Assembly: GCA_937918905.1 (NCBI GenBank)
Contig: CAKZSH010000284.1
Location: 1 to 34,151 of the forward strand
Direction of reading: 5' to 3'
Origin: an uncultured Saprospiraceae bacterium
Lineage (GTDB): Bacteria > Bacteroidota > Bacteroidia > Chitinophagales > Saprospiraceae
DNA: 34,151 bases
The notes under the pieces were generated by a model, which saw only the letters and a program-made list of their open reading frames with translations, had not been told where the DNA came from and did no database searches. A program made the translations under genes and the position numbers. This document shows positions 4,012 through 5,284 of the stretch, in pieces; within the stretch, counting starts at the first letter, position 1; every line of letters starts with the position of its first letter.

Positions 4012-4335
4012 TTACAATTCAATTGATGGATTCCATAGATGTTTTTTGAAATCCTGAACGGTATTATCTTTTACGATGACTCCTTCATTTTCAAGTAATT
4101 GTTGCATCATTGTTGGGCTAGGAAAATGGTTTCTGCCGCTGAGTTCACCTTTACGATTAACTACTCGGTGAGCAGGAACATTCCCTTCTGTAAAACTTTT
4201 ATTGAGTGCCCATCCCACCATTCTTGCCGAACCTAAATCAAGATAATTGGCAATCGCACCATAAGTACTAATGCGACCAAATGGTATTAGACGAGTAACT
4301 TCATAAACGTCTTCTAAATAATTTCTTTTTTTCAT
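4012..4335 (-). CDS. alkyltransferase-like protein (MGMT DNA-binding domain, no active cysteine)
   Basis: A 107-residue protein equal to the DNA-binding C-terminal domain of O6-alkylguanine-DNA alkyltransferase. The helix-turn-helix part is clear (RLIPFGRISTYGAIANYLDLGSARMVGWAL), with the RMVGWAL recognition helix. The active-site motif, PCHRV in true alkyltransferases, is PAHRV at residues 54-58: the acceptor Cys is Ala55. Known ATL proteins carry Trp or Ala there, bind alkylated guanine without repairing it, and hand the lesion to nucleotide-excision repair. The N-terminal MGMT domain is absent, as in other ATLs. ATG at 4335. Confidence 0.88.
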   Translation of the reverse strand: MKKRNYLEDVYEVTRLIPFGRISTYGAIANYLDLGSARMVGWALNKSFTEGNVPAHRVVNRKGELSGRNHFPSPTMMQQLLENEGVIVKDNTVQDFKKHLWNPSIEL

Positions 4336-4395
4336 AATTTTAATGTGCTAGAGTCTTTTAAAAAAATTCAATGATAAGTATTTTTTAAAAATAAT

Positions 4396-4403
4396 TACTT
4401 TTG
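4396..4403 (+). promoter_or_regulatory. Bacteroidota -7 box (TACTTTTG) upstream of the TrpF-like gene
   Basis: The octamer fits TAnnTTTG exactly and is followed by GCCACAC, a typical start-site context in this phylum. Transcription from here would give the TrpF-like gene at 4634 a leader of over 200 nt. I see no clear -33 TTTG. The stretch 4336-4633 also holds the direct repeat GATAAGTATTTTTTA at 4373-4387 and 4603-4617. Confidence 0.5.
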
Positions 4404-4413
4404 CCACACTTTT

Positions 4414-4500
4414 ATGAAAAAAATTGACCTTGAAAAAGGGGTAGTTGAAAAAATTGTTTTATTCGGTAGGTTTTCGAGTCATTTCGAAATTAATGCATGA
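4414..4500 (+). other. possible 28-codon leader ORF or gene remnant
   Basis: ATG at 4414 opens 28 codons (begins MKKIDLEKGVVEK) to a TGA at 4498-4500. It sits only 10 nt after the -7 box at 4396-4403, so the mRNA would be nearly leaderless. I do not recognise the peptide. It lies between two copies of a 15-nt direct repeat and upstream of the TrpF-like gene. It could be a short leader peptide, a decayed gene or a chance frame. Confidence 0.15.
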
Positions 4501-4633
4501 TAACAATATCAAATATTATTCCTTTTGTATCAAATTTTGAATTTGATTATGATGACTTAACGAAAGTTTGAATGGATTCTATATATCAGAATAATACTTT
4601 AAGATAAGTATTTTTTACAAAATCATCAATAAA

Positions 4634-5284
4634 ATGTTGAAAACCAACGTAAAGGCGAGCAATATCACCAATTTGACGGATGCAAGATATTTTGCAGCTT
4701 GGGAAGTTAAATGGTTAGGATTTGATTTTCAGGAAGGTTCTGAAAATTATATATCACCTCCAACCATGAAAGCGATCAAAGAATGGGTAGAAGGAGTAAA
4801 GTTCGTAGGCGAATTTCCATTTACGACTGCTGAAGATATGAATGCTGCTGTAGCAGCATTAGAATTGGATGCAATACAAGTGGGGATGTTTACCGAAGTA
4901 GAAGTTTTAGAAAAAATAAGTGAAGTTACAGTCATTAAAGAAGTTGTGATTTCTCCAGATGTTGATGAAGCTAGTTTGGAAAACCATCTTCAACTTTATG
5001 CCCCTCACGTTGAGTATTTTTTATTCTCTTTTGAAAAAAGTGGAACGACTTGGGAAATGATGAAAAATGGAAAAAGCCAAATTTCCATTGCTGTGTTGGG
5101 AAAGATTTGTAATCAATATAAAATTATTTTAAGTATTGATCTTTCTCCAGATGCTTTGGAAGAAATTCTAGCGATTCCAAATTTGCATGGCTTGAATGTA
5201 AAAGGAGGAGAGGAGGAAAAAGTAGGCGTAAAATCTTTTGATGAGTTGGATGAGATTTTTGAGGCGCTGGAAATCTTAGTTTAG
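4634..5284 (+). CDS. TrpF-like (phosphoribosylanthranilate isomerase fold) protein lacking catalytic residues
   Basis: A 216-residue protein aligning by eye with TrpF over its whole length. The start KASNITNLTDARYFAAWEVKWLGFDF matches the K-I-C-G-I-T-n-x-x-D-A...LGF opening; VKFVGEFP matches the second strand; and LHGLNVKGGEEEKVGVKSFDELDEIF matches the C-terminal phosphate-binding end. TrpF uses a Cys general base in KxCG and an Asp general acid in the LLD segment. Here the first motif is KASN (Ser9 for Cys, Asn for Gly) and the second reads FLFSFE without Asp. The GGTG phosphate loop is also not intact. It is therefore unlikely to isomerise phosphoribosylanthranilate. No other trp gene is nearby. 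Ligand and role unknown. Confidence 0.72.
   Translation: MLKTNVKASNITNLTDARYFAAWEVKWLGFDFQEGSENYISPPTMKAIKEWVEGVKFVGEFPFTTAEDMNAAVAALELDAIQVGMFTEVEVLEKISEVTVIKEVVISPDVDEASLENHLQLYAPHVEYFLFSFEKSGTTWEMMKNGKSQISIAVLGKICNQYKIILSIDLSPDALEEILAIPNLHGLNVKGGEEEKVGVKSFDELDEIFEALEILV

Follow-up and report, generated by a model that had tools for sequence, protein, structure and literature searches.

The window, the whole stretch of 34,151 nucleotides that was analysed, comes from an uncultured Saprospiraceae bacterium and encodes a 216-residue relative of the tryptophan biosynthetic enzyme phosphoribosylanthranilate isomerase (TrpF). This protein and its orthologues are referred to here as X. The gene, its divergent neighbour and the segments of X that bear on its function are as follows, with the basis of each assignment in brackets.

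4012..4335, minus strand: alkyltransferase-like protein (ATL), with PAHRV for PCHRV, divergent, read as an ancestral gene-order neighbour (locus comparison)
4336..4633, no strand: intergenic region of 298 bp between the divergent ATL and X (upstream alignment)
4634..5284, plus strand: X, TrpF-derived pseudoenzyme, 216 aa (ATG open reading frame, Pfam PRAI, AlphaFold2, dN/dS, residue table)
4652..4663, plus strand: KASN, residues 7-10, beta1 motif at the TrpF KxCG, Lys retained, catalytic Cys and Gly gone (residue alignment)
4673..4699, plus strand: LTDARYFAA, helix alpha1, residues 14-22, where conservation across the family is highest (conservation profile, alignments)
4784..4786, plus strand: W51, at the end of alpha2, the same residue in all short and full-length members and in intact DAR-type TrpF (alignments)
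5018..5029, plus strand: FLFS, beta6 motif, residues 129-132, with Ser at the position of the general-acid Asp (residue alignment)
5132..5140, plus strand: SID, residues 167-169, at the beta7 phosphate-binding GG of TrpF (residue alignment)
5204..5233, plus strand: GGEEEKVGVK, residues 191-200, beta8-alpha8 loop, strongly conserved, pLDDT below 50 at 194-198 (conservation, AlphaFold2)
5234..5281, plus strand: SFDELDEIFEALEILV, residues 201-216, helix alpha8 (conservation, alignments)

The window ORFs scanned encode a response regulator, DctP, YkuD, DUF922, ATL, YqeY, rRNA adenine dimethylase, M17 peptidase, PdxA, alanine racemase and others, and no trp gene was found among them, as the first-pass annotation had noted for the surroundings of X. 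The ATL (4012-4335, minus strand) has its alkyl-accepting Cys replaced by Ala (PAHRV), and ATL often adjoins TrmB. Only close relatives can be aligned across the ATL-X intergenic region, in which no strong upstream footprint was seen beyond these relatives.

The same annotation described the TrpF scaffold as kept from end to end, and domain and structure comparisons bear this out. Pfam PRAI matches residues 9-210 (E = 2e-10; score 41 bits, cut-off 22.7), AlphaFold2 predicts a TIM barrel (pLDDT 89.2, from a 13-row alignment), and the thirteen best solved structure matches to this model are all TrpF or TrpC-TrpF fusions (TM 0.71-0.78); as modelled, X retains the (beta-alpha)8 barrel of the PRAI family. 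Its score against the NCBIfam TrpF equivalogs, 39 bits, falls far below the cut-off of 215. X resembles TrpF (PF00697) in fold, length and register, in K7 and Q82, and in the E-G-K of the beta8-alpha8 loop. It differs in the loss of the catalytic Cys and Arg, of the GGxG loop and the beta7 GG and, in the window protein, of the Asp, as well as in its location outside any trp operon and its occurrence in genomes devoid of the tryptophan pathway.

In TrpF, the Cys acts as the general base and the Arg after beta2 is a substrate residue. Alignment of the window protein with intact TrpF places S9 and N10 at the Cys and Gly, N38 at the Arg and S132 at the Asp, so that KASN for KxCG and FLFS for LLD stand as first reported. 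The GGTG phosphate loop is likewise lost, and a second phosphate element can be added to this loss: I168 and D169 occupy the beta7 GG, while the beta8 SG reads G191-G192. A residue table comparing 44 full-length Saprospiraceae X with 30 operonic Bacteroidia TrpF extended these observations. The Cys is present in 30/30 TrpF and 0/44 X, where Ser predominates at this position and Gly, Ala, Asn or Thr make up the rest; family-wide (122 X proteins), it is absent from 119 of the 120 that could be scored by motif at that position and present in one. The Arg of the SxR motif, found in 30/30 TrpF, is lost in X, as are the GGxG and beta7 GG, and Gly takes the place of the beta8 Ser. Loss of the general-acid Asp after beta6 is not general, as 22 of the 44 close relatives retain it. 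This residue corresponds to D126, the catalytic general acid of Thermotoga maritima TrpF (PMC9088769).

The source genome (5.55 Mb in 372 contigs, completeness 93%) encodes three PRAI proteins: an intact TrpF (134 bits), an orphan (83 bits) and X (41 bits). The intact TrpF sits in a trpD-C-F-B operon, which answers the proposal of the first-pass annotation to look for a second, intact trpF; the case in which X would be the only trpF of a prototrophic genome does not apply. The orphan (L002:1477-2139, minus strand, contig C282) also has the PRAI fold and also lies outside any trp operon, near a proline-racemase-like ORF, but it retains its catalytic motifs (KICC, LLLD, GGTG and the beta7 GG) and is without the DAR/W51 signature of X described below. 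Extra PRAI genes resembling this orphan are present in several relatives.

X is widespread. With the window protein as query, 148/299 genomes of the order gave matches, and with an X profile 98/395 genomes of the class did so. Some weak cross-hits to ordinary TrpF are counted in both figures, and about 75 of the class genomes have matches at E<=1e-10. The suggestion that a phylogeny of TrpF homologues might disclose a conserved clade proved apt: X forms one clade spread through Bacteroidia (support 100/99), apart from a single clade of operonic Bacteroidia TrpF (100/100). X is probably ancient and vertically inherited in Bacteroidia, and no description of the family was found in the literature searched. 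Within it, a distant subgroup (L110, L113-L117, L120, L122, L126, L127) has the N-terminal DAR motif and an LDYD-like C-terminal motif in place of GxKSF, and two X-like proteins (L097, L098) with HEARYAAA and an altered C-terminus group beside TrpF in one tree and inside the X clade in the other. Long open frames in three loci (L013, L015, L045) look like upstream read-through rather than domain fusions.

A PRAI search of 59 genomes identified 12 X-bearing genomes, each at least 97% complete, with no TrpF or with only X itself. TrpC is absent from all 12, and TrpA matches are absent or are short, weak fragments of 43-66 positions, of which one passes the cut-off by 0.5 bits. Co-occurrence of X with the tryptophan pathway is thus broken in these genomes; X is kept without the pathway and, therefore, is not a cryptic TrpF. 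A diverged TrpF that still works would be compatible with the complete fold, with the PRAI score above cut-off and with the general-acid Asp in half of the relatives, but the Cys and Arg are lost, and the intact trpF of the source genome together with the twelve pathway-less genomes led us to reject this very improbable reading. The consequences for annotation are practical, as many Bacteroidia genomes carry X and Pfam would either name it TrpF or, for the short members, miss it altogether. X uncouples TrpF-fold proteins from tryptophan synthesis, and a PRAI match alone is an unsafe basis for calling prototrophy.

Loss of the active site and variable length might also be expected of a decaying pseudogene. 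However, dN/dS was 0.05-0.22 across eight orthologue pairs (rough values, as dS is near saturation in several), which indicates purifying selection, reading frames are open nearly everywhere, and the signature of X is invariant across many families; decay was rejected on the selection test and has next to no probability. The orthologues in two genomes (G130 and G277) are each interrupted by a TAG stop codon, which may reflect either recent loss or an error in sequencing. X thus combines two properties of a pseudoenzyme, an enzyme fold stripped of catalytic residues and maintenance by selection. The earlier proposal of a repurposed barrel that is no longer a TrpF is well supported by the intact trpF elsewhere, the conserved clade, purifying selection and retention without trpC, trpA and trpF, and the function of X is probably a different, non-enzymatic one.

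Gene neighbourhood offers a possible partner system. ATL is divergent from and adjoins X in 39 loci, TrmB is near X in 12, and the order ATL-X-TrmB occurs in five loci (L063, L066, L069, L103, L104) from four families, from which it might be supposed that X acts with ATL and TrmB in nucleic-acid alkylation or repair. This is improbable, as ATL is near-universal (48/50 genomes checked), ATL and TrmB are tandem neighbours in ten genomes that lack X, and many X genes are located elsewhere, with neither ATL nor TrmB nearby. Because ATL is near-universal and adjoins TrmB in X-less genomes, the ATL-X-TrmB slot is best explained mainly as ancestral gene order, which argues that the X genes are orthologous and vertically inherited, and not that they share a function with ATL and TrmB. 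No co-directional neighbour of X is conserved across the loci compared.

Conservation in X is concentrated in one sector, beta8-alpha8-beta1-alpha1-beta2-alpha2, which contains LTDARYFAA (mean 4.1 bits), W51, and the GxEExxGxKSF of the beta8-alpha8 loop (3.3 bits) and following helix. The signature of this sector comprises L14, the DAR at 16-18, Y19, W51, G54, GxExxxGxK at 191-200 and F202. Because helices alpha8, alpha1 and alpha2 are adjacent in a TIM barrel, these stretches would form a single contiguous surface sector. Short members of the family keep the signature. Among 23 X of 149-214 aa, 19 columns reach an identity of at least 85%, and every one of them falls inside the sector, either within the first 54 residues or towards the C-terminus, with none in the intervening part. 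Identity averages 0.57 in the sector versus 0.24 outside it, where the middle of the protein, eroded in relatives of 149-190 aa, is barely alignable. Several of these short relatives are missed by Pfam PRAI. The AlphaFold2 model of a 149-aa member (pLDDT 79.5) runs from beta1-alpha1 to beta5 and resumes at beta8-alpha8 after a poorly predicted gap, and TrpF proteins remain the best matches to this model among solved structures (TM 0.54-0.64).

The reading that we favour, and consider probable, is that X is a TrpF-derived pseudoenzyme of Bacteroidia that acts by binding through the alpha8-beta1-alpha1-beta2-alpha2 sector, with another protein or X itself as the likeliest partner. In some members the barrel would have been eroded to about 150 residues while the sector signature survived. 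Against this reading stand the lack of a conserved co-directional neighbour and the conservation of three pocket-facing residues in full-length members. The latter is the basis of the main rival, an unlikely one, in which X would catalyse a new reaction or act on a new substrate by means of K7 in beta1, E60 in beta3, Q82 in beta4 and, in half of the members, the beta6 Asp. Among the 44 full-length Saprospiraceae members, K7 is found in 40, E60 in 42, Q82 in 35 and D132 in 22. Hence D132 is variable; in addition, short orthologues lose or change the E60 and Q82 region yet retain the signature sector, both TrpF phosphate elements are gone, and no metabolic gene is conserved as a neighbour of X. 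In the full-length subset, the conserved K7, E60 and Q82 may nevertheless serve a different ligand or reaction. The first-pass annotation had suggested, more specifically, that the repurposed barrel binds a different phosphorylated ligand. This part of its interpretation is unsupported, because neither phosphate element is intact and the residues conserved across the whole family lie away from the catalytic pocket. X might, as the annotation proposed in the alternative, act as a regulator.

A precedent for the binding role that we prefer is the TSB-like pseudoenzyme of eudicots, a catalytically dead tryptophan-pathway paralogue that has kept an interaction function (PMC12727527). TSB-like is derived from tryptophan synthase beta and acts on the alpha subunit, whereas X persists in genomes without a credible TrpA and, thus, cannot target TrpA there.

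Searches of other classes of the phylum with the X profile returned strong matches, and those inspected were mostly catalytically intact TrpF (KICG, SPR, LLD, GGTG) that share with X the DAR, W51, GP and KDF residues. These DAR-type TrpF (L209-L225) have L14, D16-A17-R18, Y/F19, W51, G54, P55 and F202, with R18, W51 and G54 each in 15/15 and F202 in 14/15. The X profile scores them at 116-168 bits, versus 27-63 bits for Bacteroidia TrpF. Unlike X they are catalytically intact, and one (L210) lies inside a complete trpE-G-D-C-F-B-A cluster, confirmed gene by gene. A tree that holds X and DAR-type TrpF together as one clade is 5.2 log units worse (p-AU 0.33), so that a joint clade is neither established nor rejected. 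The idea that R18, W51 and F202 form an interface specific to X was ruled out, as the same residues occur in intact DAR-type TrpF. Because the signature is common to these intact enzymes of sister classes, the alignments place its origin before the loss of catalysis, and the sector surface probably predates that loss as well. On the favoured reading, the ancestor would have carried isomerase activity together with this surface, and X would have retained the surface alone after a different TrpF came to provide the isomerase.

A tentative scenario, which we regard as possible rather than likely, is that the ancestral TrpF of Bacteroidota was bifunctional, combining isomerase activity with a conserved binding surface (DAR/W51/KDF). 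A different TrpF would then have taken over the isomerase step in Bacteroidia, and the old protein would have been kept for its surface alone, part of the barrel being discarded in some lineages. In the sister classes, intact DAR-type TrpF would carry out this hidden second role to the present day. X offers a testable case of a metabolic enzyme in which a second function seems to outlast both catalysis and part of the fold. In the L210 trp cluster, an ORF between trpE and trpG (L210:8348-9334, minus strand; GIQPSGKLHIGNYFGA) is tryptophanyl-tRNA-synthetase-like, a name given from a motif alone.
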